Source: Acorus gramineus
Taxonomy: Eukaryota; Streptophyta; Magnoliopsida; Acorales; Acoraceae
Direction: 5' to 3'
NCBI GenBank assembly: GCA_030737835.1
Contig: CM060847.1
Span: forward strand, 3,562,484 to 3,626,483
DNA: 64,000 nucleotides
The position numbers and the translations under genes are program-made. Shown here piece by piece: positions 17,917 to 59,400 of this stretch. The first letter of the stretch is position 1. Each line of letters begins with the position of its first letter. The notes under the pieces were generated by a model. It did no database searches. It saw only the letters and a list, made by a program, of their open reading frames with translations, and was not told where the DNA came from.

Positions 17917-19817
17917 ATGAACCGCCTTGTACAGATTGTCTCAGCTTCACTTCAAGGCAGGCAGTCAGCTGATGGACCAGCTGAAGTGATGACTTTCAGG
18001 TAATGCTTCATTTAACGCCATAAAAAAATATCAAGGATTAGTGGTTTGGGGACTGGTACGCAGTCTTCACTTTTTTTTTATTTTTTTTATAAAAATTAAT
18101 AATAAAGAAACATTTTTTTTATAAAAATATATATTTCAATAATGATATATGTCCATTTATATTTCCTTTGTTTAGGTGCACGGCCTTAAATAAAAGCGTG
18201 GCATTTAAGGTGGAGCTAAAAATTGGAATTGGTATATAAAGCTCAAACAAAATCCAAATAAAAGCCTATTTGATTAGATACGATAGGATTTTAATCATCT
18301 TTAGACCTGATAGTGTTGTTATTTCTATGTAAAGCTCGGAGCGTGCAAAAAAGACGACAGGTGAAGATTGGGAGGGATCCATAAGGAGGAGGATGAAGAA
18401 CGCCCACAGCAACCATTGGCGCCAAGAGCCATGCTCCATCTTCAGAGTCCCCCATAACATCCGTTGGTGCAGTTTCAAATTCTACGATCCAAATTTAATC
18501 CACAACAGCCCATATGACCCCAGATTTGTATCCATCGGGCCATACCACCGTGGGAAGACTCACTTGCAGAAGATGGAGGAGTACAAGTGGCGCATTCTTC
18601 ATCTCCTCCTCTCAAATGATAATGGGGATAACAGTCTACAAAGAAGCCTCAAGGAGATGCAGAAGCTAGAAATGCGCGCGCGGAGCTGTTACTCAGAGTC
18701 TATTGACATGTCCAGCACAGATTTTGTGGAGATGATGCTTCTTGATGGGTGCTTCGTTGTTTTCACGCTAGCGTGCCAGATCGACGATCTAAGCTTCGAT
18801 GTCAAGGGACCGGCAGAAGATGGCGGCCCCATAGCTCCTATGAATTGGATATGGGGAGAGGTGAATAAAGATTTCCTTTTGCTCGAAAATCAAATCCCAT
18901 TTTTCGTGGTTAAGGCACTCTTTGAATTATTTATAGCTACTCCACATAATGTAAATCGTTCCCCAGAAGAGCTTGCAATCATTTTAATGGAATTGGATTA
19001 CATGGGGAAAAGAGATTCACCCCCCACTGTACCCAATGGCGGCGGCGAAGTCCATCACTTGCTTCATCTTTTCTATTTAACTATTCTTCCTGCTGCCACT
19101 CATCTTGAAAGATCCGGGGAGTCATCCAATAACCCAACCATGGCCATCAAGTTCAAGAAGAAGATGAATAATGTCCTTGGCAAAGTAATACACCGTCGTC
19201 ATTTACTTCCTCTGTTCAAGAGGCAAGCTACTTCATCAACATCAAGCACAAGCGTCTCAGAATGGATTCCGACCGCCACGGAGCTCACAGAGGCGGGAGT
19301 GAAGTTCAAGGTAAAGAAGAATACAACATCGTTCTTAGACGTGACTTTCCACGATGGACTGATGGAAATCCCAACTCTCGAACTTTATGATAGTAGCGAA
19401 TCCAAACTCCGCAACCTCATCGCGTTCGAACAGTGCTATCCCAACACTAAAACTCACGTCACATTCTACACGCTCTTCATGGATTTCCTTGTAAATAGTC
19501 CCCAGGACATCTTAATTTTACAGCAGAAGGAGATTATATTGAACTGGTTGAGCGGCGAAGAGGAGGCGACACACTTGTTCAACCAGCTTGGCATGGAGGT
19601 CAGTTGCGATTCAAGGGAAAATTACCTTTCAGGTTTATATGATGAAGTGACTAGATTTTGTGGGTTGAGGCGAAACAAGTATCGGGCCTTGTTGATGCAT
19701 AATTATTTCAGCAACCCTTGGTCAGCTATTTCATTCGGAGCAGCTGTTGTGATCCTCATCATGACCTTCTTGCAAACATTCTTTACTATGTATGCTTATT
19801 TTCACCCCCGGTCTTAG
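17917..19817 (+). CDS. DUF247 (UPF0481) membrane protein, two-exon type
   Basis: Proposed exons 17917-17999 and 18335-19817, with a 335-bp GT-AG intron (donor CAG/GTAATG, acceptor TATGTAAAG). The join keeps frame and gives 521 residues. The first exon encodes MNRLVQIVSASLQGRQSADG and a few more residues; the second opens with SSERAKKTTGEDWEGS. DUF247 motifs: SIFRVPHNIR, VSIGPYHRG, EMMLLDGCFVV, ENQIPFFVVKALF, FLDVTFHDGLMEIP and NLIAFEQCY. A C-terminal membrane segment (AISFGAAVVILIMTFLQ) is followed by YAYFHPRS. Without splicing, translation could only begin at the ATG at 18393, giving 474 residues that lack the usual pre-domain. The first exon is supported by four related copies in this window; expression data would settle it. 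The protein is clearly diverged from the intronless tandem type. Confidence 0.85.
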
Positions 19818-20778
19818 TGTTAATCCATGGGATTTCTAGGTTGGATCTCGTCAATGCATGTCAATCCTTCATTAGAGGCTGACATATCCTCTCACATGAA
19901 TGTTACACATTTGAGAGTTAACTTGTAATACTTTGTGATTTTGATTGCATGCCGAGTCTCCACCTATTGTATAGGTTCCACATGGTATTTTTTTTCCATG
20001 CTACATTAGAGTGAAGGTTCAAATCTATGACATTTCATGTTATGTATAAAAACTAGCTGACTCAGCGTAGAACTCAATCCTAACTAACTATAAGTTGAAG
20101 GAAACAAACTCAAACTCAACCCAACCCAACCCACAAGCCCGTGTAGCTCAATCAATTAGTTCGGGTTTGGGTTTGATTTGGGTTAAACTCGAGTTGGCTC
20201 AAGTTTGACTTAAAACAAGTTTGTTTTAAACAAACAACATTACTAAAGTCAATGCTATACACGAAAAAAAAAAGAAATTTTTTTTATTTATAAAATATAT
20301 AGATGAAACTATAAAAGTTATAGATTCTAGGTAAAAATAAGTTGCACACTTCAAATTTTATCTCATAAATTAAAATTTTAAAATAAGATTTAAAACATTT
20401 AAATTTATCACTCCCCGTTCAGGTTGAGTTCTAGTTATTCGACCCTCGATCAAAATCCAATCCGGATCAGGTTTAGAGTTGTTTGGATTCGGGTTCAAGT
20501 TCTAAAAATTTAACTCAAATCTGTTTGGGCTCTCATTAGTAGGACGGACAACGTGACAAACACGAGATTATGAACGGGTTCATGTTCAACGTCATAACTG
20601 AGAAGACGCGTAGAAATCGCTCCCGACCCTTTGTTCTTTGTTTAATATTCTATTATTTGAATAAGAGCACCGAGGAAATCAATACAACAGAAGCATGACG
20701 GGATCGTTGGCGACAACCACTCAAAAGAATTGGTGACCAAAGGAAATATTTATGGACAGTGTGGTAACTCTAGTTTAA
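19818..20778. other. Intergenic, no gene seen
   Basis: Probable 3' UTR of the preceding DUF247 gene, including TTAATCCATGGGATTTCTA that also survives beside the relic tail near 24170. After that, AT-rich sequence with GGGTTTGGGTTTGATTTGGG runs near 20160-20190; no gene recognised. Confidence 0.45.
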
Positions 20779-21008
20779 GGTCTCGTTTGGATATACGTTT
20801 AGGTAGATTCTGCTTTTAAAAAATTAAAAATTCTCAAACACGGATTCAAATACATTTTCAGCGTTTAGTTTTTCAAACCACAGTATTCTATTTTTAGGTT
20901 AAAAAAATCTTATGGTTAAAAAACTAATAAAACAACTATTTTAAAAGTTGAGTTTGAAACACAAGATTCTAAAATCTTAGTGTTTCAAACTCATATCCAA
21001 AGACAGCC
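20779..21008. mobile_element. Short MITE with TAA target duplication
   Basis: 230 bp, bounded by TAA. Left end GGTCTCGTTTGGATA; right end TATCCAAAGACAGCC, whose complement GGCTGTCTTTGGATA is a near match. Further internal symmetry occurs (AAACACAAGATTCTAAAATC against GTTTCAAACTCA). Harbinger-like non-autonomous element. Confidence 0.55.
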
Positions 21009-21389
21009 TAAAAAATAGAATTCTAGGAATCCAATTCTGATCAATTTCGAGAAGAGGAGTAATGAAAATAAATTTGCTTGGAATGTCTAGAAATGACAAA
21101 AAAAATAAAATATTGGAGGAGTTCAATTGCCATTTATCTGGCTTCACCTTCTCATTAGCACTTCCAGCTAGCCATTGTTAGTATTTTTGGATTACAGGCT
21201 TTTGCAACGGTGTCTAGATAAATTCAAACCACCCTTATCTTTGTCTCGAATTCAAACCCCCCAAACTTATCCAATGCACATGATTTGTATGTAACTATGT
21301 GCATCAGGATTATATTTTTCCTAACAAATGTTGGGTTTCTAGTCACAAAACAAACAATGTTTTTTTTTTTTAATTATTTCCATCCTTTA

Positions 21390-21960
21390 AGACTTTGATG
21401 GTCTTTGTTAATCCATTTCTTCAAGAGCAATGGTCTTTTTTAAATTGGTACACCAATAGGTCTTTGTTAATTCAATTTCTGTATTTGATTTCAATGACTA
21501 CGGCAGCTGTATTTCATTGACTTTATGTTATTATTTCCGCTTATTTAAGTAGTGTCTGGATTGATTTTTAATTTGAAGTAAGGCTATTTCCACTAGATCC
21601 AGTGCACGTTTTCAAAATTATTTTTAAAGTTTCAAAAATGTTGTTTAGCTAATGTGCACGTGTATGACAACATTTGTTAAAAGCTAAGATAGGTTATTTT
21701 TAATAGACTTATAAATGTCCTATTTTGAAAATCAACTTTAACGTTTCCAAAACATCACTTCATGAATCATGAAACTTTGGATCCGTTTGAATCCGTGGTG
21801 GGACGAATTTTGTGGTGAAAAAGCCGCTAAACATCATCGTGGATGTATTTAGCTTTTGCGTCGACATTATTCTGCACACCCTAGCTACAACGCTTGTTCC
21901 AACCTTTTTTTTTTCATATTTTCAGATGCAACCAAAACAATGCTTTTGAAATGCGGGTTT
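21390..21960. repeat. Dispersed repeat, inverted partner at 50170-50890
   Basis: Blocks GACTTTGATGGTCTTTGTTA, ACCAATAGGTCTT, ACAGCTGTATT and ACATCACTTCATGA recur in reverse orientation and matching order at 50170-50890. No coding potential. Either a duplicated flank of the second-type DUF247 genes or an old transposon. Confidence 0.55.
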
Positions 21961-22739
21961 TAACCCTTGAATTATCATAATGCGGTATATATTTATATAC
22001 AATAACATATTTTATTTGTTTTAAAAAATAAAAAATATTTATATCATATACTATGATAGAAAATCTCATACCGTGTTATCATAATGTATGAGCTGCAGCT
22101 AGGACTGTAAAACGGATTGAATGTATCAATGCTTTATATGTTTAGTTGGTGTTGATGCAAAGACATTTAATGGACCGCAATGTTTCTCACATACAACATT
22201 GAGAAAACTAAAACTAATACTGTCCATAATAAATTGTAGATCAAAATCCACTAGAACATGCGAATATCAGCCCATTGGACTTGCACAACTTATTTTTTCC
22301 ACATGCGCAGCGCAGTCAAAATAAGTGAAATGAGGGTGGCCACAAAAGGATAATGTCCCATACATAATTATTAGCAGGCCATGAGCCTTTGGGACGACCA
22401 TTTAACAGGTTTACTAATCAATAATATCCTACACCACTTCGATATTTGTTTTAAAGTTTATCCTTTCCCCTTGGAAAATTATGTCACATGTGAGGAATAT
22501 TAATTTTAAAACAAACTGGTTTAAGGTTATGGAGTCATACTACAAATCTTGGAGCACGCTTAAAAGTGAAACTTGTCCACAACCCACCCACCCCTGCCGG
22601 CTGCCCTGGCCCAAACACACAACTGGGAGAAAGAGAGAGAGAGAGAGAGAGTAAATATATAAACCATTTTTCTTGACATTTGAGAAGCTTTTGAAAATGT
22701 GATTCTCCATCTTATGGTTTTTAAACCCCTAGATTTTCA
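21961..22739. other. Intergenic, no gene seen
   Basis: AT-rich start, then a block near 22085-22130 (CTGTAAAACGGATTGAATGT) that resembles 43030-43065. A GCCGGCTGCCCTGGCCCAAA patch at about 22596 and a GA microsatellite at about 22630-22650 precede the DUF247 relic. Confidence 0.4.
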
Positions 22740-24190
22740 TAAATGAAAAATCCCTTTCACACTGGAAAGTTCTTGGTAGAGACATTCATCTTCACTCTGT
22801 ATATAATCTCTCAAAAAGCCAATTGAATTCCAAGAATGTAATGAGACCAATGAAAAACATTGGAGAGAGCAGCTTGACTTCACTGCACGCCAGTCAGTCG
22901 GCTGATGGATCAGGAGGAGTGACTCAGTCTCAGGTAATGCTTCGTTTACACCACAACAATTATAGCAAAAAAAAAAAAAAAAAAGGAAAAAAATCACTTA
23001 ATTTTTTTGTTCAAAAAAAAAAAAAAATAATATTATTTAAACTCACGATTGGATATATGAATGGACGTAGAATATGATGGAATTTAAGTAAATAAATCTA
23101 TAAACCTATTTGTTTGCAAGAATAAGTGGGTGTTAGGTATTTGTATTCCATGTCCATTTGAAATTGGATCATTTCACATGATTTATTTTGATGGGACACA
23201 TCTAAATAATTAGTTATTATCTCTTATAAATGAAAGAAATATACATCTCAAACATTTTATAAATTTATATTCATATTTTATTTAAAATTTATTTATAGTT
23301 AATCAAACAATAATAATTTTATTATTACTTTTTTCAAACTATATAAAAATAATTAAATAGAAAATGATTTATTTTACTGATATAATTATCAATAGTAAAA
23401 TAATTATTATCAATGACTACCTTATACTGCTATCCATTAGGGAAGAGTGAGTTTGGGGGATCGGACATATATGACAGACTCATCTTTTAGACAAATGAAG
23501 AACATTGGAGAGAGTGGATTAACTTCACTGCACGCCAGTCAGTCGGCTGATGGGTCAGGTGTGACTCTCAATCTCAGATTCTCAGGTAATGCTTCGTTAC
23601 ACAACAACAAAGATAGCAAAAAAATATATATACATCCATCAATCAAACTTTTTCGGTTCAATGGGAGAAAAAAAAAAAATGTAAACCCATGCTTGGAATA
23701 GAATAATAGATTTGAAATATCGTCCAATACGAGTGAATAAACCAAAAAAACATATTTGTTTGCAAGAATCAGACGAGTGTTGGAATATTAATATTTCAGG
23801 TCCTTTTGAAATTGTGTCATTCTATACAATCTAGCTATTTCAGTCAAATCATGTGATATCACCTTTTATAAATGAAAAATACCTACATATCAAATCATGC
23901 ATTTTTTTTCTTTTTATAAATTCTAATCAACATCTTATTCACATTTTATTCACAATTTATCTATGGCCAACCAAACAACAAAAACTTCATTATTATATTT
24001 TTTTAATTATATAAAAACAAAACAAAACAGAAAATGACTTATGAATAAGTGGTGGGTCACATTGTGCATACATATTTTAGAAACCCATGGTCGATCTGAG
24101 CAGCTGTTTTCCTACTCATCTTGAACCTTTTGCAGACATTCTTTGCTATGTATTCTTATTTTCATCTTAGAATTATCCATGGGATTTTTA
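22740..24190 (+). pseudogene. Decayed second-type DUF247 gene: two orphan first exons and a tail
   Basis: Two diverged copies of the short first exon stand in tandem: an ATG at 22850 with donor CAG/GTAATG at 22934, and an ATG at 23495 with donor CAG/GTAATG at 23586. Both encode MKNIGES, SLHASQSADGSG and a few more residues. Each is followed by similar intron-like sequence (shared TATTTGTTTGCAAGAAT at about 23107 and 23754, AGAAAATGA at about 23359 and 24030), so the unit of about 650 bp was duplicated. The whole central DUF247 domain is missing. A fragment at about 24075-24190 matches the C-terminal membrane region and 3' UTR of the gene at 17917-19817 (ACATTCTTTGCTATGTATTC, ATCCATGGGATTT). 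The two donors leave different phases. Not expected to make a DUF247 protein. Confidence 0.75.
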
Positions 24191-24252
24191 CTATCAGAAT
24201 TGCATAAATAAATGTCTTCTCATTGCAGAGTTTAATTTTCAACAGTTGTACA

Positions 24253-25159
24253 TGTTAAAACTTTATCAAGATTAGGGCAATGTAAAGAACCTAGTAAGAC
24301 CACAGATTCAAACCAATATGAAAACACAGTAAAATATTCTGCAAATAAAGAACAGAGGATTAGATAAATATATCAGTTTTAGTGGAAGCGAGCAGAGACG
24401 CTCTGTCCTCGGTGAATAAGGCCCCCCCACGCACATGGATGAACGGCTCCTATCACTGAGAGATACAACCACCAAAGTTATGCCTCCTCGGGGTGTGAGC
24501 TACGAGGAGACCACAGTGAACAGCCGCGATCCTTTCAGACGCTCAGATCAGAGAATAAAGAAAGTGGAAAGAACAGACTCCTCTGTAAAGGAAAAAAACA
24601 AAACAAAAGAATAGTGGTTGTAGGTGGGCTCTGGTGATTTCGTTGATGTTGAGAGAGACCAATTTGACACCTTTATATAGGCAGTCCAGCAACGGGAAAC
24701 CTGACCACTTAATTGTGCACATTAATTGAAATAATAATCTCGGCGCGGATGGTTTTAGAAACAATTCAAATTCAAATAATAAAAGGAGTTGTCGCGAGAG
24801 ACAAAAAGAAACTCACGCGCATACGGGCCAAGCCCGAGGAGAGGGATTTGCACCCCCATGCGCACGCACCCAAGTGTGGCCCGCAACCCAGCCCGCCTCG
24901 TGCGAGCGCACACGCCTGGTTAACTAGTTTTTCTATCAGAAATCCAAACCCACGGGTTGATGAGTTGGGCCTCATGCGCGCGCGCGTAGAGGTTTGGTCC
25001 AACAAGTCTCAACAATAGAATTGTTTTACTCTATGTATAAGGTGAAACAATGAAGTGGTTTTAACCGATGTGGGACTAAAGTGTTGGAAAATGAAAAGGG
25101 AATACTCAATTTTTAGTCAATCAAAGAATGAGTCATTCAAAATAGGCCCAACACTAACA
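24253..25159 (-). mobile_element. Solo LTR, 907 bp (LTR retrotransposon fossil)
   Basis: On the minus strand it begins TGTTAGTGTTGGGCC and ends TTTTAACA (TG...CA with TGTTA/TAACA termini). Exact 5-bp target duplications, GTACA, lie at 24248-24252 and 25160-25164. A TATATAAAGG promoter-like box reads on the minus strand near 24675. No internal coding region remains, so it is a solo LTR, probably Copia or Gypsy; the family cannot be told from the LTR alone. Intact ends and an exact target duplication suggest moderate age. It lies just after the decayed DUF247 tail. Confidence 0.8.
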
Positions 25160-25164
25160 GTACA

Positions 25165-27776
25165 TGTTCTTCAAATGTGCGCTCATTGTCCTTGTACATC
25201 TCACTTGCTCAGTGTATATATATGTATAATTATGCATATATGTTGTGAGGATTGCATGTGTGATTTGAGTCCTTGCTCATAATTAACATTTTTCTACATC
25301 ACATGATTCACATCAATATATATATGAGTCATTTCCCTAATAACTGAGCTATATATTGGTGCTATAAGTCTTAATGTGCGTGTAAACTGGAGCAATGAGG
25401 CTGTACCCAAGAATTCAAGACTGTAGATTTTGATGCCCCTCTAGTTTACAAGGGAGCACATGTTATGTTTGTATCATATATAACATGATAATTAAAATAC
25501 AATTAATAAAATATATGACATGTTAAAAATATTTTGAATTAAATTATATAAAATATTTATTAAATAAATTTCAAATAATACAGTTAATACATAGAATATT
25601 TAAAAAAATCAAATTACACAAAATAACATCACTTGCAGCAAATTGTGAAAGAAACAAATGTATATTACCTGAGTTTAACTTACCATTTTGTTTCTCTGAT
25701 CTAGTTTACAAGGGAGCAGATGGTATTGGTTGTGGACATATATTATGTTTGTAAATATATAACACGATACATTTTATTAGTTGTGTTTTAGTTATTTGGC
25801 CACGGGCCCGGGTCTTGTTTCAATGGGCCGGGCTGGTCCAATCTGTTGCCGATGCCTATGTGTACCTCACCGGATCATCTAAGGATGTTATATCTGGTTA
25901 GATGGCTATGAAAGTATATGGATTGTTCTCATTGATGATATGTAATAGCATTCATTTAACAATTTTTTTGTGCCGTCAGAAAACACCAATGTCCCAAACC
26001 AAACCAAGGGCCCAAAAACCTGATTAATAAAAAGAGTAATATTACATTCAACTCCTTTTACATTGCCACCTATATTCCGTTTATGGTTTTATTCGAAACT
26101 CTTTACACAGTAACACATTTTACAAGTGAATCTATAACCTATTGAAATAGTTATTTCACTGGTCTTCCTCCATACACGATGTGTGTGAATATAAAATTCA
26201 ATAATTAATATGATATATTAATATATTAAAAAAACAAACAAACAAAAAATATAATAAAATAATATGATATTTTAACCTTTTAATATAATAGAATAAAATA
26301 AATGTACCCCACTAAATAGTATGACATGTTTTTTTTTTTAAAGGAAATGTAGATATTTGTTACTCGATATCATTGCTAACCTTGGATTAAAACAGTATAA
26401 CATGTTAATAAATCTTCAAGGGCAACCTACTAATAAAATAAAAAAATAAAAATGTAAATATATCCCCAAACAATAACGATTTAGTAACAAAAAATAATAC
26501 AAAAATAAAATAAATTAACGATTTAATCTTAACAAACATTTTTTTCACCTACATTACTTTTTACAAATGAGAATGCTTATCCTAACAAACTAATTTTTAA
26601 GCCACTATCCTCAAAAATCCAAAACCAAAAAAAAAAAAAATAGTTAAGAAAACCATTAATCTCCCCATCCACCATTTGCCGTAATCCTTTTTACCGGAGC
26701 GGACAGAGGAAGGAGGGGGGGGGGGAGGCAAAAAACTGGGGAGGAGGGAAGATGGGTGACGGGTGGAAGAGGTGGAGGAGGGGTACAAAGTGGGGGAGAG
26801 GGAAAGATAGAAGGTGGGGTAGGGAAGGGTAAAGGTGTAAAACGAACTATATCGATCCAACCCGGCCTGTTAGAGAAATTGGCCAATGGGTTACTGGGTC
26901 ATACCGGCCTAACCCAACCGATCCTATGAGCTGGACCACCATTATTTTTAAAAATATTTTTTTAGTTTAAACATAATTTTTCTTAGTATTATACACAAAA
27001 TATATTTCATTTTTAATGATCCACGAGGGAGACATAGACTAATTTTAGTTAAAAAAAATAAACAAGTATTTTTTTAAATTCTGTGCTCTTAGATCTCAAT
27101 AAATAGGCACTTAATAGTAATTTTTTTTATAATCAAGTAATTTATTATTTATTTGTTTAAAAATTCATAATTCAATCTTATCCAAGTCAAACAATTCAAA
27201 ATTTCATTTATCAGATAGAGTGCAACAAAGTAACTAAGTTGAAATCATTTATAATTAGTATAATAGATAGATGATGATCAATTATGATCCCTAAAATCAG
27301 GGATTACATTTTTAAAAATTGATATATCACATATTCCTAAAACTATGGGTATCCTAAAATCAGCTATAAATAATAATATATTTTAAGATCTAATATAAAG
27401 TCATTAAATTTTTATTTCTCAGATTTAAATGATAGTTCCTTTTTAATCCCTGAGAGGGACCTATCCATAAATTATTTAATTTACTTTTTAATCCCTGTGA
27501 GGGACCTATCCATGAATTATCCTTTAAATCGGGGGACTAAAACCTAAATACGAAGAAGGGAGGGATCGATTACTAAATATAATGATTTGTGAAGACTTAA
27601 AATTAAAAAACTCTATTTTTTTTAAAAGAAAATTTGCTGTTTGTATTTGGATTTTGGGCTAACATTTTCTTTCATATAAAAAACCAAAACAAGCTAAAAA
27701 GACGAAATCATCCCTTCTGAAACAGAGCAAGCGAAGGGTATATTAGTAAAACTCAGGCCTTTATGAATATACCCCC
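25165..27776. other. Long intergenic region, no gene seen
   Basis: AT-rich, with only short open frames. A purine-rich strand-asymmetric tract lies at about 26698-26830 (GGAGG/GGGGAG repeats), whose frames give low-complexity Pro/Ser peptides and are not credible genes. GAGGGACCTATCCATAAATTA repeats itself near 27450 and 27500. CTAGTTTACAAGGGAGCA occurs twice (25441 and 25703), a small local duplication. Confidence 0.45.
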
Positions 27777-27850
27777 AAACCCTAGGGTTTCTCTCCTCCA
27801 ACGAAAGCAGCTGCGCTTCACTTCATCTCCTCTCGCCGAACCCTCTCGAG
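27777..27850 (+). promoter_or_regulatory. RPS28: Probable RPS28 5' exon with palindromic telo-box
   Basis: AAACCCTAGGGTTT at 27777-27790 is a perfect palindrome containing the AAACCCTA telo-box typical of plant ribosomal-protein gene promoters and leaders. A pyrimidine-rich leader follows (TTTCTCTCCTCC, CTTCATCTCCTCTCGCC), with a possible donor GAG/GTCAGA at 27850/27851. I assign it to the RPS28 coding exon at 31713 because no other gene lies between; the implied intron is about 3.85 kb. This link is inference. Confidence 0.5.
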
Positions 27851-31704: not shown

Positions 31705-31712
31705 AGTGAAGC

Positions 31713-39927: not shown

Positions 39928-41458
39928 ATGAAACAAAGTGAGTTGTTACACTCAAGTCTATCTTATAGACCAAATCACAGTTCTATATATATCTTATTGA
40001 AAATCCAGTGAAACATATATATCGTCTCATGATGTATGTACATTGATTGTTTTTTTTTTATATATTTATTAAAAATGGGTTTTCACACTCACCTGATAGA
40101 TCGCCTCTGGCTTTTCTTTTGTCTTCTTTCATTGAACCTGGAATGGAGTGATATATATTTTTTTTATTAAAATATATATCTCAGTAGACGATGTTTATTA
40201 TTTAAAAAAATAAAAATACATGTGATTTATGTTTTAAACTGTAAAAAAATATTGAATGTAACATTCTCTAAAGAAAAAAAGAATAAAGGGGAGCAAGTTC
40301 TATGCGGCTTCCCGGTTATTACTTTTATTTTGTTTTATATTATATTGTGTGAATTGCGTCTCATATTTTGTAGCATTGAACGTGAACCTGTACGTAATCT
40401 TGTGTTTGTCACATTATCGATCACTCAATAAAAGGTATAAATACCTGATTCAAAGGAGCTGACAATCAAAACAGGTTAAATCTAAGTCCACCCACACCTG
40501 ATACTATGGATTTAATTCGATTGACCCGATCTAAATATTATATGATTTTTTATATTTATGATTCAATCCAACATTTATTACTAAATACTGAATAATCATT
40601 TAAAAATTTAAGCATAAAAAACATTTGTTTTCCCGTAAAAACAAAATAATTCAAACCGTATTTCAAATTCTCCCATGAAACATAAAAAATTAAAATAGTG
40701 AAAACTATTTATAATACACTGGACTTTATTTATTCAAACTCAGTCACATAAAAGTAGAAATGAAAAAATCCAAAAAACAAAAAAATGTGCTTTCCACAAC
40801 CCCAATGTGCAATGTTTGGCTCTTAATTAATAGTCCCGTAACCTCTCCAAATCCAACCTTTCTTGATCCGACTTAGTCATGTTAGTGGGTCAACCTAGAC
40901 CCGATAAAAGGTGTAAAATATCAGACTCGAAGGACCTGATAATCAAACGGGTCGGGTCTAGATCCACCACGACTCGATCCAGACTTGACTCATTGATATA
41001 CCTAATAATTATCGGTCCTAAAAGAGAGTCCAAAACATCAGCGACAAATTGGAAAACATCCGAAAGATATAACTCTTCTTTGGATAACAATTAATCTCCA
41101 CGTAGAGTTTGTTGAAGATAAGTTTGCTGCCAAGAAGTCATTAATTAATTAATGTCTTGTAATTCTCTATTATCAGTGGATATTCTTGATTTTGCAATCT
41201 TGTAAATATAGACTTACACTGAATCATGTAAATGTATTTTTCATGTGTTTGTGTTATTCTTTTATCCCGTATTAATATTTGTCTTTGTAAATATTGACCA
41301 ACACCGAATCACATATTAATATTCTTTTATCTTGTATTAATATTTGTCTTGTTGACTTCCGCTATACACAACATTTATGAGACGTATGAATATATATATG
41401 ATATATATATGAATATATATGATACTGAAAATGATAAAAATAATAACAATTTATGCTT
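39928..41458. other. Intergenic, no gene seen
   Basis: AT-rich. Two related stretches about 40440-40520 and 40900-40980 (GGTATAAATACCTGATTCAAAGGA and GACCTGATAATCAAACGG types, with ACCCGA words) suggest a degraded element. AATATTTGTCTTTGTAAATA-like words repeat near 41270-41350. No coding signal. Confidence 0.4.
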
Positions 41459-42751
41459 TGAACAGAGAAAGTAAATGACGACGGTGTATTACTTTGCCAA
41501 GGACATCATTATTCATCTTCTTCTTGAACTTGATGGCCATGGTTGGGTTATTGGATAAGTACACCTCTGATCTTCCAGGTTGAGTGACAGGAGGAAGAAT
41601 AGTTAAATAGAAAAGATGAAGCAAGTGATGGATTTCCTCGCAGCCATTGGGTACAGTGGGGGGTGAAACCCTTTTCCCCATGTAATCCAATTCCACTAAC
41701 ATTATTGCAAGCTCTTCTGGGGAACGGTTTACATTATGTGGAGTGGCGATGAAAAATTCAAAGAGTGCTTTAACCACGAAAAATGGGATTTGATTTTCAA
41801 GCATTAAGGAAATCTTTATTCAACTCTTTGCCCGATCGATTTCATAGGAGCTATCGGGCCGCCTGTTACGATTTCGGATCTTGGAATGCAATCAATCAAA
41901 AAAAATAAACAAACAAATCGAAGCAAAGACACAAAATTTTTACGTGGTTCAGCAAATCTTGTCAACGTCCACGGAGCACACCATATATCAATCCACTATC
42001 AATAAGAAGTTTTTACAATGGTCACACCGAAGATAAAAACCCGACCCTGCGTAGCGCCAACAATCCCCTGCGCACATCATCAGGCTCCACAATATATAAC
42101 ACCGCCATCATCTTCTGCCGGTCCCTTGACCTGGAATCTAAAATCGTCCATCCGGCACGCTAGCCTGTAAACAATGAAGCACCCATCAAAAAGCATCATC
42201 TCAACAAAATCTGTGCTGGACATGTCAATGGACTCTGAGTAACAGCTCCGGGCACGTAGTTCCAGCTTCTCCATCTCCATGCGGCTTCTCTGCAGACTGA
42301 TTTCCCCATTAGTATTTGAGAGGAGGAGATGAAGAGAGCGCCACTTGTACTCCTCCATCTTCTGCAAGTGAGTCTTCCCATGGTGGTATGGACCGATGGA
42401 TACGAATCTGGGGTCATAAGGGGTGTTGTGGATTAAATTTGGATCGTAGAATTTGAAACTGCACCAACGGAGGTTATAGGGAACTCTGAAGATGGAGCAT
42501 GTCCCTTGACGCCAATGATTGCAGTGGGCATCCTTCATCCTCCTCCTCATGGATCCCTCCCAATCTTCATGGTCTGTGTTCTTTTTTGTACACTCCAATG
42601 TACTTTACGCAGAAATAAGAAAATCTTCATCAGCTGACTGGTTGGCTTGCAGTGAAGCTGAACCTATCTCCCCGATGTTTTTCATTTCTGATCCAACACC
42701 TGACTGGCCGCCATTAAGTGAAGCGAAGACTATCTCTTCAAGGTTGTCCAT
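41459..42751 (-). pseudogene. Second-type DUF247 pseudogene, split by a solo LTR and truncated
   Basis: Closest relative is the two-exon gene at 17917-19817. The first-exon ATG is at 42749-42751. The first exon is internally duplicated (MDNLEEIVFASLNGGQS then MKNIGEIGSASLQANQSAD). The intron is almost wholly missing, and its remnant adds an in-frame TAA. The domain start (SIFRVPYNLR, VSIGPYHHG, EMMLFDGCFIV) reads well from 42550 to 42106. A 238-bp solo LTR at 41864-42101 interrupts it, and two one-base frameshifts follow in the short stretch before ENQIPFFVVKALF. Homology stops after HRRHLLSLFK near 41462, so the C-terminal third, including the membrane segment, is absent. Non-functional as a DUF247 protein. 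Confidence 0.85.
41864..42101 (-). mobile_element. Short solo LTR (TRIM-like), 238 bp
   Basis: On the minus strand it runs from TGTTATATATTGTGG to ATCGTAACA. It has TG...CA ends and TGTTA/TAACA termini. Target duplications of 5 bp (CCGCC in plus orientation) lie at 41859-41863 and 42102-42106. The paralogous gene at 17917-19817 has the uninterrupted site (GATGGCGGCCCCATAG), so the insertion is seen directly. GAACCACGTAAAAATTTTG inside is a common phrase near plant LTR ends. Only an LTR is present; its short length suggests a TRIM or small Copia family. Confidence 0.82.
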
Positions 42752-46315: not shown

Positions 46316-47845
46316 AACGATGAAATATTCTCATCCTTGATTCAAATAATACAAAAAACCCAAATTAAGCAAATTTTACCCCGGATTCAAGAATCACTCC
46401 TAATAGATCTCTCCAAAGTTGTTGTTATCTCCTACACCTTCGCCTCGGATTCGTAGGTATTTTGCGACACAATTTGTGTATATATAGGGTGGTGAAAGGA
46501 AGGATTCCTTCTATCATAAAACTTTCCTACTAATTGTTTGTCATTGTTGATGATGTCCTACTGACATATCATTCAGAGAAGATGAATGTACTCTTGGTGG
46601 TGAAAGAGCAATTGCAGACCTTCCCAACGAACTTCTAAGGTTCATATATAGAGCAAACCTCGTATCCCACCTGTAGAGAGATGTATAGTTAAATAAACAA
46701 AATATAATATTACCCTTCACTTAATACCCTACATTTTCTTTCTCCTTAAACACATCCCATCTTTTCAAAAAAAAAAAAAAAAAATAACCATTTCTTTTAT
46801 ACACATACACCACTTAAAAAAATCATTTCGGCTGATCTGTTTTTAAATTGTTTAAACGTTACATGGAATGTAAAATATTTATGTAAATGTAATTGTTATT
46901 TTACATTTATGTAAAGGTAATAAATAATTATGAGAGATGTAAACATATAGAATTCAGTTACATTTGTACATGTAACTAAATTTGAAACACCAAGTGAATA
47001 AAGATAAAGAAAACATTATACAGACCTGACACGACATACACTGTTAATCCAATTGATGAAATAGTTGATCGATCGAACACAAAATACGGTGGATGGACAA
47101 AAAACAATGGATGATAATCATTTTTAAAAAAATTCAATATGCTATTTTCATGTATTTACAGCATTTAATCATTCAAAGTGGTTAAATAAAAGAGTGAATA
47201 CCAATCCAAATTTTTGAACGGAATAAAAAAAAAGAATAAATACCGATCAAAATTTTGGAACGAAATAAAAAATAAACAAAAAAAAAAAAGAAAAACATTT
47301 GATTCAATTGTCTAAACGATTATAAGGAAGCTATGAAAACATAACTGCATGTATCCACAATTTGAGGGGATTACTTACAGAAAAGGCAAATTAACTTGCA
47401 TGGTAATGCAAAATGCCACCTCATAAGACTTGTGATGAGTCCTATAACTTGGAGCCTTAAAACCATTATTGTTGTTTTAAAAATATATTCCATTATAATA
47501 AATATAAAATAATATGCGCTATTCAATTTTTTATAAGTATATGTACATTATTAGTTAAATATGTTGATGCAATAACGTCTATAGAATTAGATCTCAATAC
47601 ATGTAGAACGACCAAGAGAACAAAATATCACAAAAAAAAAATACAATTTTTCGTGTGGTTCGATAAAAATATGTTGACATTCACGAAGGTAAGCAGAAAA
47701 CTATTCACTTTATAAAATAATTGTAGTACGTCTACATTGTCCCTTTTTTTCAGAGAGAAAAAACTAGAACGGTCGCATCTCATATAATGAGCCTCACAAT
47801 TTTTTTAATTATAACAAGGAGGAGACTAAATAAATACGATATAAA
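46316..47845. other. Intergenic, no gene seen
   Basis: AT-rich. Near 47595-47815, phrases such as TTTTTCGTGTGGTTCGATAA and GACATTCACGAAGG resemble LTR-like leader phrases on the reverse of those near 41950, but no ends were found. Confidence 0.35.
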
Positions 47846-51689: not shown

Positions 51690-52528
51690 ACACCCAATAT
51701 TTTATGTAACCCACCTTTAAAAAAAAAAAAAAGAAAAAAAATTACCCTGTTGTAAACACTTAATTTTTTTTTCTATCTTCATCCCTTTAATTTTCTCTAG
51801 TCCCATAAAATCACAGTTCTCCCCCTGTAAGTTCATATATGTTTTATGTAACTTTCAGAACACAAAATATAATTTATGTAAATATAATCTGTATGTGCAT
51901 TATTACGCATGTCATATAAAAATGTTAACTTGCAAAACACTAGACAAACATATCTTAATGTAAAACATCTGAAAATATTTTATCACAATAAAAACATCAA
52001 AGCATTTGAATTCATTGAATGTTTGCATTCCAATGTTTTTTTCCTACCTTAATGAACTAAGATATTATATTTTCTCTGATTATCTTCATGTCATTTTAGT
52101 TGAAATTGAATATAATGTTACACCTCGAGTTAGCAAGTGTACATCATTAGGAACAAAGCGTAGTTCAAACTATATTAGAGATGTCACAATTAGTCATACA
52201 CTCAAATAAATCAAACATCAACAAGTGTGTACTTTATGATAATATAAGAACCACATATATATTAATGTTATGCATTAATGTATGTTTCTCTAGTATTTTG
52301 TAAGTTATCATTTTCACATAACATAATAATGCATTTACATATAATATTTACAGAAATTACATTTTGTGTTCTCCAAGTTATAGAAAGCATATATGCACTT
52401 ACAGAGAGAAACTACGATTTTGTGGGGTTGGGGGAATTAAAGGGATGAGGGTAAAAATTAAGTGTTTACTGCAAGGATAAAGAATTTTTTTAAAAAAGAT
52501 GGGGGTTACAGAAAATATTGGGGGTTGG
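51690..52528. mobile_element. Foldback MITE with ~150-bp inverted ends
   Basis: Left end CACCCAATATTTTATGTAAC and right end whose complement is AACCCCCAATATTTTCTGTA. Pairing continues through GTAAACACTTAATTTTT, CATCCCTTTAATT and CACAAAATC-type blocks to about 51840 and 52385. The interior is AT-rich. A target duplication could not be fixed (a TTA repeat follows the right end). No transposase. Confidence 0.65.
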
Positions 52529-52799
52529 CTGTCCTTATTATTATTATTATTATTATTATGAAAAATCTGACATTTGTTAAGAAAATTCTGGATGCATAGT
52601 TTACACATTAACCATCTGCCTTGGATAAGTTCAGTGGGATTCAAACTTGAGAAAGAGATAAAGGTTGTTTTGAATTTATCTAGATTTAGTTAGTTAGGTA
52701 ATTAGTTAAGTCATCGATCTTGAAAAAATAAAATTTTGAATTTTTTTTTTATATCTTAGCTGTTTCTAACATCGATCATTATCTTTAAAAAAATATTTA

Positions 52800-52925
52800 C
52801 ATAAGTCACATTAGGGCTCTCCCTATAAAAAAATCCGAACTCCATCATCATCACCGGGATCAAACCCTGGACAATTGCGCGATGCGGGTGCATTCCAACC
52901 TACTCGCCAGCAAGGTGTGGTGCGG
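52800..52925 (-). mobile_element. Probable tRNA-derived SINE (Au-SINE-like)
   Basis: On the minus strand: GCTGGCGAGTAGGTTGG (A-box-like), then GGGTTTGATCCCGG (B-box-like) about 30 bases on, then GGAGTTCGG and a T run. Spacing and order fit an RNA-polymerase-III promoter of a plant SINE. The full 5' and 3' limits and target duplication were not resolved. Confidence 0.45.
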
Positions 52926-52934
52926 GACGTTACG

Positions 52935-53265
52935 TTGCGGCTTTAGGGTCACCCATGTTTCACCTATTTCGACAACTGTTGTTGGCATGTGAAAAAAGTT
53001 GTGTGATACCAAAGGGTTGTTCTCCGCTGGTTTTAGTGGACAATCCCATTGTCTGTTCTAGATACATAGTGTCTTAAAAGTCTTCTCTAATGTTAGTAGT
53101 GTTGTACATATGTAAGGAATATTGCATACCATTAAATGCCTTTGCACCCACTTAAGTCCATCTGAGAAAGAAAAAAAACGACATGCTTGAGAATATGTAA
53201 AGGTTGAAGTTCCAAACTATACTCTTGTTCTAGCCAAGGGAGATTCTGATATGTGGAGAATTGCA
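52935..53265. repeat. Dispersed repeat, partner at 49055-49350
   Basis: See partner: GTGTGATACCAAAGGGTTGT, CATTAAATGCCTTTGCACC, ACATGCTTGAGAATATG and GCCAAGGGAGATTCTGATAT in matching order. It leads directly into the C-run tandem array. Confidence 0.65.
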
Positions 53266-54185
53266 CCCCCCCCCAACCACCCCTTCCTGTAAATTTCCTC
53301 TCGATCAACTACACTGCTGCATCATTTGACATCAGAGTTTTGCTTTTAAATATATTGGATAATGTCTAGGTGAGATTCTTGTTCTGACGAGATGATGAAA
53401 GATTAGAGATAGTCACATAAGATTATGTATATCTTATGTTAAAACAAATCAATTTTAAAATTCATTGATTGAAAATTCAACACCCCCCACCTTCCTGTAA
53501 ATTTCCTCTCGGTCAACTACACCGCTACATCTGGCATCAAAGTTTTGCTTTTAAATATATTAGGTCATATCTAGGCGAGATTCTTGTTCTGACGAGATGA
53601 TGAAAGATTAGAGATATATAGCCACATAAGATGATATATATCTTATGTTAAAACAAATCAGTCTCATAATTCATTGATTGAAAATGTCAACCATTTGCGT
53701 TTGAATATATTAATAGGGCGCTGGGCGAGTAAGAAATTACCTTATGTGTCCCTGTAATTTTTGATATGTGGAGAATTGCACCCCCCCCCCTCCGTTCCTG
53801 TAAATTTTCTCTGTCAACTATACTGCTGCATCATCTGACATCAGAGTTTTGCTTTTAAATATATATTGGATAATGTCTATGCGAGATTATGTATATCTTA
53901 TGTTAAAATAAATCAGTCTCAAAATTCATTGATTGAAAATCCTTCCCTCCCCCCCTTCCTGTAAATTTCCTCTCAATCAATTACGCCGTTGCATCATCTG
54001 ACATCAAAGTTTTGCTTTTAAATATATTGGATAATATCTAGGCGAGATTCTTGTTCCGACGAGATGATGAAAGATTAGAGATAACCGCATAAGATGATAA
54101 AATGTCAACCATTTGTATTTGAATATATTAATGGTGGGATTGGGAGTAAGAAATTAACTTCTGTGTCATTGTAATTTTTCTTTAT
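53266..54185. repeat. Four-unit tandem array headed by C-runs
   Basis: Units start near 53266, 53481, 53780 and 53942. Each has a run of C, then CTGTAAATTT(C/T)CTCT, CATCAGAGTTTTGCTTTTAA, ATATTGG and in most GACGAGATGATGAAAGATTA. The second and fourth units carry the same extra tail (GAGTAAGAAATTA). The first and third are preceded by GATATGTGGAGAATTGCA. The array is therefore a duplicated dimer. Confidence 0.8.
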
Positions 54186-55165
54186 TTGGGATATGTCACT
54201 CGTGGGGAACCTAAAAGGCTGCCCAACCTGTCTATGCTAGGAGCTTAAGGCCAACCAACCTAGTTATCACGATACATTGCGAACATAATTCAATAGGGAG
54301 ATAAATCCATGTTAGTTTCAAGGGATAAAAAAATCTATCAATGTTATTTTTATTCACATTTGTCAGCATTGTGACAAAAAATGAAAATAAATGTTATTTC
54401 AGTTTTAGTAGAACAAAAAAAAATACCTATTTTTATTTTGAAAGTGGGACAAAAATAGAAATAAATGTTATTTTAGCCTTTAGGTGGAACAAAAAAATCC
54501 TCATTTAATTTTCATTTCAAAATTGGGACAATTGTTTACACTTTATCTCGATTATTTTTTTATACTAAATGGGATAAGTTGTCATCCCCTCCACTTATTC
54601 CCACAATTGCACTTTATCTCACCACTTATCTATGTGTCAAAATAGTACACAAAGTACAATAAAATTACCATTTTTATTTCACCCAAACATTTGGGGAGGC
54701 AGATTTTCCCAATAATATTTAACAAGCAAAAATAAGTGAGGATCATTCATTACTCTTGAGTTAATATTATATATATTATAAGTGATATGGAATGTCCTGA
54801 GTGGGGCTTTTTTTTAAAAAAAAATGATTATGTTATATTCAATTTATATTACAGTTTTGTATATCTTCTTCGCTACCAAAACTCACTGTGACGTGATTAT
54901 ATAACCTATTAGAATTTTTTTATGTATTTTCTAAATAAATTGATACAATTTATTACCGTATAAAGATTCATATCTCATCAGAGGAGTGCATTTTGATCGA
55001 GTTGATAACAGTATAACATTTTATATATATAAAAAAAAAAAAGCATTTAGCGACAACTGACCACCTGTCCCAATGCCCAATGCCTCATAACAAAGTAAAC
55101 AAATAATAAAATAAATCTATTCGCATGTGCTGAGATCGTCTGTCAAAAACAACAATGATCAAACC

Positions 55166-55167
<2 letters not shown>
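54186..55167. other. Upstream region of the fourth DUF247 gene, no gene seen
   Basis: AT-rich, with a repeated GTGGGACAAAAATAGAAATAAATGTTA-type phrase in two or three variants around 54350-54510. No coding signal. Confidence 0.4.

Positions 55168-55196
<29 letters not shown>
55168..55196. repeat. Poly-C run of 29
   Basis: An unbroken run of 29 C on the plus strand about 110 bases before the TATA box of the DUF247 gene at 55385. Long C/G runs are rare here otherwise. Length may be affected by sequencing error. Confidence 0.8.
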
Positions 55197-55306
55197 GTTT
55201 ACAGTCAAAGCTCAAAGCTGGGAAGGAAGCTACAGACAAAGGCCAGCTGGAGTTGATAATCAATGAGAGAGAAGGAGAAGCCACCCAGAATGTGCCTCTT
55301 CCCTTC

Positions 55307-55313
55307 TATAAAT
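55307..55313 (+). promoter_or_regulatory. Probable TATA box of the fourth DUF247 gene
   Basis: TATAAAT in TTCTATAAATTTGGG, 78 bases before the start codon. The same word in related context precedes the three tandem intronless copies, at about half the distance. Confidence 0.55.
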
Positions 55314-55384
55314 TTGGGTTAGATAAACACAAGGAGGTGACCAACCTAAATTCTAAACCTTAAAACCAAAAAAAAAAAAAAAAA

Positions 55385-56935
55385 ATGGCCGAGGGAACTG
55401 TTGGTGAATTCCAGCAGGAGAGCACCACCACCTCTGACTCAGAGCCTGAGGTTGTCATAGAAATGGACAAATCATGGGTGGATTCTGTGAGCAGCAGAAT
55501 AGATGCCTCTTTGGTCCGGCCGTGGCGGAAGAAGCAGTGCTCAATATTCCGAGTCCCAGCCAATCTGCGCGCACTACACCCGGAGGACTACGAACCCAGG
55601 GTGGTCTCCATCGGCCCGTACCACCACGGCAAAGCTCACCTCGAACATATGGAGAAGCAAAAGTGGCGGATGGCCTGGCGCCTCCTATTGAAGAGGCGCG
55701 AGGAGGATTTGCTGGGTAAGTGCCTCCACAAGGTAAAGACGTTGGAGGAGCGAGCGAGGGGCTGCTACTCGGACGTGGTTGATATGAGCAGCAATGAATT
55801 CACCGAGATGATGTTCCTGGATGGGTGCTTCCTCATCGGATATCTACTCCTCGAGAGGTCGGAGACCATCAAAAGAAAAAATCCAAACACGACGATGGAG
55901 GACGACGATAATTGGGTGTGGAAGGAGCAGAAGGACGAGGAGGAGGCCGAGAGGGGCGCCATGCACAGCTCTTTATATTATACAGAACAGGTCGCTCGTG
56001 ATCTCGTCAAGATGGAGAACCAGATGCCTTTTTTCGTGGTGCAGGCCCTGTTCCACCTGCTCGTGTTCCAGGCAGATCTAACCATCTACGATCTTGCGAT
56101 GAATGCTTTGCGCGGACAAAATCTAACCACATTTATATTAAAGAACCCCAACGTGCATCATCACTTTTTCCACCTTTTTTATGAGATGATCGTGTCGGGC
56201 TTGAACTCAAATGACACTGAGAAGTCCTCCTCCTGCATCCATGAGCTTATTGATTTGGTTGACCGGGGTTTTTCGAAGATCAATAAGACAACTCAAGGTC
56301 TTCTCCTTCCCTTACGCAATTCAATTCCAATATCATTACTTCGGAAGAGCAAAGACCGAGAGAGCAAGGAGGAGGACTGGAGCTCAGGCTGGGTAAAGAG
56401 CGCCAAGGAGATGGAGGAGGCTGGTGTTAAATTCGTGGTGAAGAGGGATTCCAGCTTCTTGGACGCGTCATTTAAAGACGGCGTGATGCGGTTCCCCATC
56501 CTTCGCATCTTCGAGGATACAATGGTGAACTTCCGCAACCTCATTGCGTTCGAGCAATGCTACCCCGACACAAAGGATCACATAACCTACTACGCGGTGT
56601 TTATGGACTGCTTGATCGACACCCCAACGGATGTGAAGGTCCTCCAAAGAGAGGGAATACTACGGATTGGAATCAGCGACGAAACGGAGGTCGCAGAGCT
56701 CTTCAACAGCCTGACTAGGGAGGTGTTCTATGCCAATAGTAAGAGCTACCTCGGGAACTTGTTTGTTGAGGTAAATAAGTACTGCGATTCGAAGACACAC
56801 AAGTGGAGGGCGGTGCTGGCGCGTGACTATTTCAACAGCCCGTGGGCGGTCAGCTCTGTGGTCGCGGCCTTCATCCTTCTGGTTCTGACTCTGTTGCAGA
56901 CGGTTTACACCATGTATAGCTACTACCACTCCTGA
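55385..56935 (+). CDS. DUF247 (UPF0481) membrane protein, intact, intronless
   Basis: A 516-residue DUF247 protein of the same intronless type as those at 2400-3965 and 14260-15840, but on the opposite strand and about 40 kb away. Begins MAEGTVGEFQQES at the first ATG, right after a poly-A stretch. Motifs: MDKSWVDSVSSRI, SIFRVPANLR near residue 57, VSIGPYHHG near 77, TEMMFLDGCFLIG, ENQMPFFVVQALF, FLDASFKDGVMRFP and NLIAFEQCY. A C-terminal hydrophobic helix (SSVVAAFILLVLTLLQTV) ends with YSYYHS. The C-terminal tail is shorter than in the tandem copies (no PPSS). No frame damage is visible. As for the others, family biochemistry is largely unknown. Confidence 0.94.
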   Translation: MAEGTVGEFQQESTTTSDSEPEVVIEMDKSWVDSVSSRIDASLVRPWRKKQCSIFRVPANLRALHPEDYEPRVVSIGPYHHGKAHLEHMEKQKWRMAWRLLLKRREEDLLGKCLHKVKTLEERARGCYSDVVDMSSNEFTEMMFLDGCFLIGYLLLERSETIKRKNPNTTMEDDDNWVWKEQKDEEEAERGAMHSSLYYTEQVARDLVKMENQMPFFVVQALFHLLVFQADLTIYDLAMNALRGQNLTTFILKNPNVHHHFFHLFYEMIVSGLNSNDTEKSSSCIHELIDLVDRGFSKINKTTQGLLLPLRNSIPISLLRKSKDRESKEEDWSSGWVKSAKEMEEAGVKFVVKRDSSFLDASFKDGVMRFPILRIFEDTMVNFRNLIAFEQCYPDTKDHITYYAVFMDCLIDTPTDVKVLQREGILRIGISDETEVAELFNSLTREVFYANSKSYLGNLFVEVNKYCDSKTHKWRAVLARDYFNSPWAVSSVVAAFILLVLTLLQTVYTMYSYYHS

Positions 56936-57961
56936 TCTCACTTCATTTCTTTTTCTTATGATCAATCCGTTTCCAGGCAGATTTGATGGTTTCACATGAG
57001 ATGGTGTCAATAAAGGGTTTAGTTTTACAGAGCTTACATGCATGTGTGGGCTTTTGTAATCTAGAAAATGTCATGTATTGGCCCTATTGGGTAAATTTGT
57101 GTATTATGTGTTGCGTGAATCAATTTTCATGCATTGTTTCTGTTTTAAGTTTATCGTATCAATAAATTAAAATATTAAAATTAAAAATTAAAGATATTCA
57201 TTAATTATAAATTGATTCTATAAAATTTGTTATGTTATTTTTATTGTAATATAAAATATTATATGGTACCAAAATTTATTACCTTTTGAGCTTTTAAATG
57301 TTCAATATATCTATAAATATACTATTTTATCATAATAAACCACTCAATGAGCGATTTAGCGAAGTAATTCATTCAAGTTGGTGGTATCATTAAACTTGAG
57401 AGTTGAGACTGGATCCATAAAAGCAAGCCTTATAGGATCATGTGACACTGAATGGGATCATGTCAATTAAGTTGAACGAATAATTTTACTTAAGTTTTAC
57501 ATGTATGGTTCCTTTATAAATATAAAATAAAGTAAGGATTCAATCATTTTTTTTAGTAATTATTTATCACTTACATTTTTTTTTTTATTATTATTGAGTG
57601 TCTCAAGGATCCACTGTGACTTAAACAAAAGGGACTCGGAACACATTAAACTTGATGCCCCCATTTGAGTGGAGGTATAAGCTATTCTAGAAACTAGTAT
57701 AGATAATGAATAAATCATATTATGTTTGGTTGTGTTTTTAGTTGTTCTCATTGAAAAATATAATAATGAAATTTTTGTTATTTGGTTGACCATGGATAAG
57801 TTATACACGCGCGCGCATATATACATATTTTATGTGTGTAATATTAAGTTTATAGTTAAAAATCTGGCACGACCCTATTAACAGACAACCCGACACCGTC
57901 TGATTCCTAAACCGAAAAAGTTGACCCAGACAACCCATATTACACATCTACTATTTATTTA
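56936..57961. other. 3' flank of the fourth DUF247 gene, no gene seen
   Basis: Probable 3' UTR to about 57170, then AT-rich sequence. A CGCGCGCATATATACATAT alternating stretch lies near 57806. Confidence 0.4.
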
Positions 57962-58693
57962 GGGTTTTTTGCATATATACAATTGAAAAACATAGTATTT
58001 ATTTTTTTACCATCACAAATAGTATATTTACTAGAATATCATTAAAATGTTTTTTAATGAACAAATGTACCATTCTGTCACTTTTTAAAACAAAAAAAAC
58101 TTAACTAGAGTTAATTTTCTAATCAATAATTAAAAATGACAAAAGAACCCTGACATGATATCTTTTATAATGTTAATAATAATTAAACACAATAATATAA
58201 TTGATTTTTTTATTCTTTCCAAATTATACATGTCTTTCTTTCTCCCATTCCTTCCTTTATTTTCATGAATCAAGAGTTAGGGTTTTTAACTCCTTCATCT
58301 ATTATGGTAGATGTCGTCATTCTTCAACAACAATCATCATCATGATACTTTAACATAGATCAATTGACTACATGTGATTTTTTACCATATTTTGCATGAT
58401 AAGAGTTCTTTTTTTTTGTGTGTTTCAAATTTTAATGTGTTTTTCCTTTTCTTATAATATTTTTCATGATATAAAAATAAATGTTATATTTTGTCATGGA
58501 AGATATAAAAATAAAAAATTAAGGGTATTTTAATCATTTTTTCATGACGTTAAAAGTCTTAGTAGAAAATTTGATAAATGTTAACTAAATATGCATAATT
58601 TTTAAATATTTTAATAGTATATAAATAATAACCTATTTATGATAATAAAAAAATAAATATCATGTTTTTCAATGTTATACATGTAAAAAACCC
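57962..58693. mobile_element. 732-bp Mutator-type MITE with exact 9-bp target duplication
   Basis: Ends GGGTTTTTTGCATATATACA and, on the complement of the right end, GGGTTTTTTACATGTATAAC; pairing goes on through ATTGAAAAACAT (about 33 bp). ATTTATTTA lies immediately outside both ends (57953-57961 and 58694-58702). A 9-bp duplication fits Mutator-like elements. No coding region. A diverged copy is probable at 13155-13945 and partial end sequences occur near 58910-59125. Confidence 0.82.
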
Positions 58694-58702
58694 ATTTATT
58701 TA

Positions 58703-59225
58703 TAAAAGGAGAAAGAACAACAAAATATGATGAAATCATAACCACCTCCATGAAATAAGGGATCAGTTACATATTAGATTTAGAAATTACAATTAAGCTA
58801 ACGTGAGATTTTAACCTTTCCACCTCATGGGGCTTGGGATGGAGCCTATCAGTTTAGGCCCAAAAATCATTATTGTAAAATTAATATTCTTATTTGTATA
58901 AATATTTTATTTTAGTAAGGTAAAATATGCAAAATAAAAAATAGTAATTTAATCATTTCACAATGATTTTAACAGTTTTATTAAAAATTTGAGTAAGAGT
59001 TAATTAAGATGGTAAATATGCATAATTTTTTTACATATTCCAATGGTATAAAAATAAATAGATTGTTTACAGTGATATAAAAATAAATAATATATTTTTA
59101 AACAGTATACATGTAAAAAATAATTTATTTTAAGTATTAACTTAAAAAAAAATCAAAATATGTAAGAACTGCACGCAATGATATGATCCATGCCATTTTT
59201 CTTGATGTAAAGAAGCATTAATTAC
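58703..59225. other. Intergenic with partial copies of the neighbouring MITE
   Basis: Stretches near 58920-59120 (TTTTAACAGTTTTATTAAAA, TAAACAGTATACATGTAAAA) resemble the right half of the 57962-58693 element. No gene. Confidence 0.4.
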
Positions 59226-59400
59226 GTGAGAGGCACGTCAGCTGGTCCACCGGTTGAACAGTTGGCTTGCAGTGAAGCTGAATCCATCTCCCCAAGGTGG
59301 TTCGTTTCTCTCCCACCTATCTTGGAATTCAATTGGACTTTTGAGACAGTTATATAGAGCGAAGATTAATGTCTCTTCTAGTGTCAAAAAGAATTTTTGT
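59226..59400 (-). pseudogene. Orphan first exon and promoter of a second-type DUF247 gene
   Basis: On the minus strand the CTCTATATAAC and CAATTGAATTCCAAG words of the second-type promoter are followed by an exon-like stretch (59305 down to 59226) that matches codon for codon the first exon at 17917-17999, including TCAGCTTCACTGCAAGCC and GGTGGACCAGCTGA. The start codon is ACG instead of ATG and the donor is AC/GTAATT. No DUF247 domain lies beyond it on this strand. The plus-strand frame here is a shadow. Confidence 0.65.

Follow-up and report, generated by a model that had tools for sequence, protein, structure and literature searches.

A short first exon of DUF247 genes in Acorus gramineus, most probably an ancestral coding exon with stray copies left by dead duplicates

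The window analysed here is a stretch of 64,000 nucleotides (nt) of the Acorus gramineus genome (contig C1, 3562484-3626483), in which a short exon stands at 17917 before the body of a DUF247 gene and recurs at 22850, 23495, 42751 and 59305. This exon is, with high probability, an ordinary and ancestral one, the first coding exon of those plant DUF247 genes that form a two-exon branch, and its stray copies would be leftovers of dead duplicates. It would carry a TATA-type core promoter and a short 5′ leader, code for about 17-28 residues (48 where doubled), and be joined by a phase-2 intron to an exon holding the whole DUF247 domain. Tandem and segmental duplication would have multiplied these genes, which then decayed one by one; where the body was lost by deletion (22850/23495) or by downstream loss (59305), the exon would have been left behind, drifting. 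The preliminary description of this DNA had seen in the copies a peptide module surviving the loss of its gene bodies, a reading that is not borne out. The intact gene consists of the following parts, numbered, like all positions without a contig or locus name, within the window:

17840..17916, plus strand: TATA-like box and short leader, with CAATTGAATTCCAA at 17887-17900; 51 of 75 aligned bases are those of the C2:2400 gene; probably core promoter and 5′ untranslated region (UTR)
17917..17999, plus strand: exon 1 of the intact two-exon DUF247 gene, 83 nt, 27 codons plus 2 nt, phase 2
18000..18334, plus strand: intron 1, 335 nt, GT-AG, phase 2
18335..19817, plus strand: exon 2 with the DUF247 body (PF03140, E 1.1e-112)

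Exon 1 of this gene ends in CAG before the donor GTAATG, and the acceptor reads TATGTAAAG followed, at 18335, by CTCGGAG. Joining 17917-17999 to 18335-19817 gives an open protein of 521 residues and a stop, and the match to Pfam PF03140 (window 18333-19817; 377.8 bits against a cut-off of 24.8) places it in the DUF247 family. The earlier reading of a 521-residue protein via a first exon is thereby confirmed in exon, donor, acceptor and open frame. The splice is further supported by the stretch EDWEGS.RRR, which lies 5′ of the first methionine of exon 2 (MKNAHS at 18394) and has counterparts in paralogs, so that coding must reach upstream of this methionine. The copy at 17917 is the only one in the window with an intact frame into donor and body. 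The exon would be transcribed and spliced, with the leader as its promoter.

The recurrence of the exon is far above chance similarity. BLAST with the leader and exon of the C2:2400 gene as query gave E values of 4e-27 at 17917, 9e-22 at 22850, 2e-21 at 42751 (minus strand) and 1e-50 at 59305 (minus strand). The copy at 23495 was matched at E 1e-16 by an exon profile built without it; this profile was made from 17917, 22850, 59305 and three other copies, whose own scores are therefore non-independent. GTAAT does, as had been stated, end the exon in four of the five window copies. The leader CAATTGAATTCCAA, which had been ascribed to all copies, is present upstream of four of them; 23495 has no leader, its similarity beginning about 6 nt 5′ of the ATG. 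As a specific marker the leader 14-mer was rejected, having 25 copies in the genome of which, among 20 inspected, 7 are at this exon.

Assignment of the exon to one DUF247 gene type is supported by a profile scan of 30 DUF247 loci with 1.5-kb flanks, where three matched: the window gene (L015), L030 and L034. As had been stated of the intronless genes, the exon was not found at the window's three intact ones (L007, L011, L018), which gave no profile match. One of them, L011 (2400-4025, minus strand), is the window member of a set of three intronless 541-residue DUF247 frames with identical N-terminus (L009, L010 and L011; C1:3519, 3559 and 3566 kb), which is a recent triplication.

The whole genome (398.6 Mb, 137 contigs) was searched at the DNA and protein level with several queries; the DNA search skips common words, so that the count of exon loci is a lower bound. 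Nine loci belong to a first subclade, seven on C1 at 3532.6, 3537.7, 3554.4, 3580.4 (17917), 3585.3 (22850), 3605.2 (42751) and 3621.7 kb (59305), and two on C2 at 2400.4 and 22677.5 kb. A less closely related DUF247 gene, L034 (C32:10601 kb), has a weak profile match upstream, and sequences at C2:17819.6 and C2:18070.7 kb, with 79-80% DNA identity to the L034 exon, each lie about 3 kb upstream of a same-strand DUF247 body. The exon may be shared by descent with this second subclade. A match on C10, consisting of 40 nt in AT-rich intron sequence, was excluded. It had been asked whether the exon always sits upstream of DUF247. In this one genome nine of at least 12 exon-1 loci precede a same-strand body and one a stump; at the other two, 59305 and the relic C1:3554394, neither was seen, though short stumps could escape the genome scan. 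That scan returned at least 116 DUF247 matches.

Two further observations concern other types of DUF247 gene. At L032, L033 and L035 (C2:18.88-18.90 Mb) the DUF247 frames have no in-frame ATG 5′ of the domain start, and this subclade therefore probably needs an upstream exon too. At 46400-46496 of the window (minus strand), a sequence weakly matching the leader/exon profile (E 0.0023) has a TATA-like box and lacks an ATG where one would be expected; a relative at C1:3631943-3632068, 82% identical, carries CAG before GTAAAA. This element may be a first exon, untranslated, in a further type of DUF247 gene.

At all eight loci that were read on both sides, three of them in the second subclade, the sequence allows a phase-2 exon 1 and a frame-restoring AG. 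The exon is 83 nt long at 17917, 86 at C1:3532 and C1:3537, 80 at C2:2400, 146 at C2:22677, 53 at C32:10601 and 56 at both C2:17819 and C2:18070, that is, 2 mod 3 in 8/8 cases. A coding exon 1, a phase-2 GT-AG intron and a body in exon 2 were thus read at every one of these loci, with acceptors picked by eye, homology and frame in mind. Several exon 2 starts have in common a beginning like (N)TCGGAG. In a tree of 30 rows, all seven rows with exon 1 fall inside one group of 13 rows (support 100/99), as two subclades; L023, C1_3533 (the upstream sister gene), L009, L010, L028 and C1:3539 were left out of this tree.

Several points weigh against an ancestral coding exon. The last 90 nt up to each chosen acceptor hold 3-9 AGs, one of which (two at C32) is in-frame and open, so that chance would partly account for a single usable AG at each locus; moreover, the eight loci include two near-copy pairs, 17917/C1:3532 and C2:17819/C2:18070. 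Within the group of 13 rows, exon 1 was not found in the 1.5-kb flanks of L012, L020, L024 and L026, nor to about 3 kb upstream of L029 and L027. Placed on the tree, the exon-1 label needs two changes against L026, L027 and L029, and 100 of 500 shuffles were equally good. The link between the exons of the two subclades is weak (profile E 2e-4 to 1e-3), and the match at 46400-46496, which has no known meaning, is similarly strong. Finally, a comparison of the two intact genes reveals no purifying selection on exon 1. Apart from these points, L026, L027 and L029 have, as read by eye, a candidate phase-2 acceptor AG at a comparable start of exon 2, and exon 1 was not found in the 1.5-kb flanks of L023.

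A codon-based selection test had been suggested for the copies. Between 17917 and C2:2400, the non-synonymous and synonymous rates (dN and dS, NG86) are 0.302 and 0.273 in exon 1 (14.5/58.3 other and 4.5/19.7 synonymous sites; with about 20 synonymous sites, a rough estimate) and 0.131 and 0.385 in exon 2. Exon 1 exceeds exon 2 in non-synonymous rate (Fisher p 0.013). Pooled over 15 non-independent pairs of six copies, the corresponding proportions in exon 1 are pN 0.26 and pS 0.28. The same two genes are 76% identical in exon 1 (61/80) and 53% in the intron (160/302). The residues of the peptide are weakly kept between these two genes. Since dN is close to dS, the peptide pattern appears to reflect mostly common descent and kept frame rather than strong residue constraint, and the N-terminal peptide may be a flexible, fast-changing extension.

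These rates also agree with a different proposal, namely that exon 1 is real and mainly regulatory or 5′ UTR, with translation starting in exon 2 (MKNAHS, 18394) or with any N-terminus tolerated. The start codon of the second subclade, which stands at a different, internal place, points the same way, as does a citrus DUF247 gene that, in the part of PMC7247714 available, is annotated with a 5′ UTR intron and gave spliced and unspliced bands in reverse transcription PCR. However, the constant length of 2 mod 3 and the paralog counterparts of EDWEGS.RRR are at odds with an untranslated exon. So is the comparison of exons 1a and 1b, two tandem copies at the 22850 locus, which in the sister segment described below differ at 5/19 synonymous and 2/62 other sites (Fisher p 0.007). 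The proposal is accordingly judged unlikely.

The other copies of the window, which would have decayed, consist of the following parts:

22850..22933, plus strand: pseudogene exon 1a, directly preceded by the leader; 84 nt against 86 in the sister, phase 2 lost
23495..23585, plus strand: exon 1b of the same pseudogene, a tandem copy of exon 1 and intron without leader; 91 nt against 83 in the sister, phase 2 lost
24061..24171, plus strand: C-terminal DUF247 stump, residues 481-520, left over after about 1.5 kb was deleted near 24040
42628..42751, minus strand: pseudogene exon 1 with two peptide units, lacking the donor and almost the entire intron
42080..42602, minus strand: first part of the DUF247 body of the 42751 pseudogene
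41457..41807, minus strand: further part of the same body, residues 209-323, 84% identical
59226..59305, minus strand: solo exon-1 relic and intron start, with ATG changed to ACG and the AG before the donor GT to AC

The window from about 17.3 to 26 kb is a segmental duplicate of C1:3532000-3541500 (L057), which lies about 47.7 kb upstream and has 84-96% identity in the main stretches. In the window the gene at 17917 is intact; its counterpart in this sister segment is frame-broken. Alignment of the window with L057 runs along L057 3739-6890 and continues, after a jump at 24.04 kb of the window, at L057 8415; the 1.5 kb skipped contains most of the DUF247 body of the sister, a body that is itself frame-broken. 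From this jump and the surviving stump, 22850 and 23495 are read as exons 1a and 1b of a single dead gene. L057 also holds a lone C-terminal DUF247 piece (L057:3188-3337; residues 439-486, 48% identical), with no exon 1 found just upstream, so that body pieces may also survive alone.

The peptide at 42751 has two units in tandem; as its donor and most of its intron are missing, the exon reads on into a stop. Over 203 bases, the relic at 59305 shows 85% identity to the C2:2400 gene in leader and exon; the start of the relic's intron, which remains, matches the intron of C2:22677, and no DUF247 body for it was found within the window. Just beyond this intron remnant, 57965-59120 (about 1.16 kb) has inverted ends of 84 nt (73% complementary) and resembles 13141-13931; it may be an old DNA transposon. 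The orphan status given to the copies consequently does not stand for most of them: 22850 and 23495 were one gene with a stump, 42751 has its own broken body, and only 59305 is solo. The three body-less window copies (22850, 23495, 59305) have lost phase, start or donor, which fits the prediction of neutral decay.

This loss is also the main objection to an N-terminal peptide module kept and moving independently of DUF247 bodies. Such a module would accommodate the 2/12 exon-1 loci with neither body nor stump seen nearby. Conversely, the five bodies closest to the C2:2400 gene (74-99% identical) all carry the exon. A sixth exon-bearing body, C1:3539, is 61% identical to that gene, as is C8:911587, in whose 1.5-kb flank no exon was found. 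No copy was seen beside a gene of another kind at the 12 loci, the flanks of the two solo copies not having been searched for such genes. With nine loci followed by bodies and one by a stump, an independent module is very improbable. That the similarity is due to chance or low complexity and the gene is intronless, as the unspecific leader 14-mer alone might suggest, can practically be dismissed given in-frame junctions and BLAST E values that, for loci on separate contigs, range from 1e-50 to 2e-21.

Beyond single copies, the peptide unit itself occurs doubled. Exons 1a and 1b share 53 of 57 bases, whereas units from elsewhere than that locus and its window copy match either of them at 45 bases at most, and the second units of C2:22677 and 42751 share 49/57. 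The first units of C2:22677, 42751 and C1:3554 have 43-46 matches to one another and 41-45 to 17917; as these values are almost equal, grouping by identity alone fails. A GAA-ATG joint at base 66 is common to C2:22677, 42751 and the C1:3554 relic. In L057, CTTTTAG stands directly before exon 1b, and AGACC is common to 1b and the 3′ portion of the intron; read as an internal exon, 1b measures 87 nt, keeps the frame and has phase 2-2. A tandem duplication at AGACC would have put the TTTTAG tail of the intron before the copied leader, giving the 87-nt extra exon. Being frame-neutral, 1b could have been included or skipped without a frame break, and N-termini of one or two units may once have existed.

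Between 1a and 1b in the sister segment, dS is 0.317 and dN 0.033, the pair having been singled out afterwards among 15 pairs. Were one of the two neutral, the chance of two or fewer other changes would be about 0.007. This low non-synonymous change suggests that both exons were used; gene conversion may be an alternative source of their likeness. The introns of 1a and 1b are 72% identical (370/517). The unit seems to have been doubled on two separate occasions, once through an in-frame repeat of 66 nt within exon 1 (C2:22677, 42751, C1:3554394) and once through tandem duplication of exon and intron, giving 1b; the full reading, in which alternative splicing could once have yielded one- and two-unit N-termini, is rather unlikely and is suggested here tentatively. 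Exon 1b would be a small, readable case of a tandem duplication that creates a spliceable, frame-neutral exon at once.

Otherwise, this is ordinary gene structure and ordinary decay, plain birth and death in a gene family. DUF247 genes with a tiny first exon risk being annotated as truncated or as starting inside exon 2, and copies of leader and exon without bodies are to be scored as pseudogene remains. No description of this exon was found in the titles and abstracts of the open-licence literature searched.

DUF247 is plant-specific, and in oak a large tandem block of these genes includes partial ones, according to the part of PMC9018854 available. In that text the first exon or its remnants are undescribed; like the window, the block is dense in complete and partial DUF247 genes from tandem duplication. 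In rice, 18/69 DUF247 (UPF0481) genes are intronless and 36/69 have one intron, according to the available part of PMC11184719. One-intron genes being common there, this was counted in favour of an ordinary exon; the likeness drawn here is that of a single intron. The SI-DUF247 genes of the S and Z loci of grasses are intronless and encode 508-559 amino acids, as given in the portion of PMC9825253 at hand. The window protein shares with them the DUF247 domain and, at 521 amino acids, falls within their range of length, but unlike these intronless frames it reaches that length only via the exon junction.

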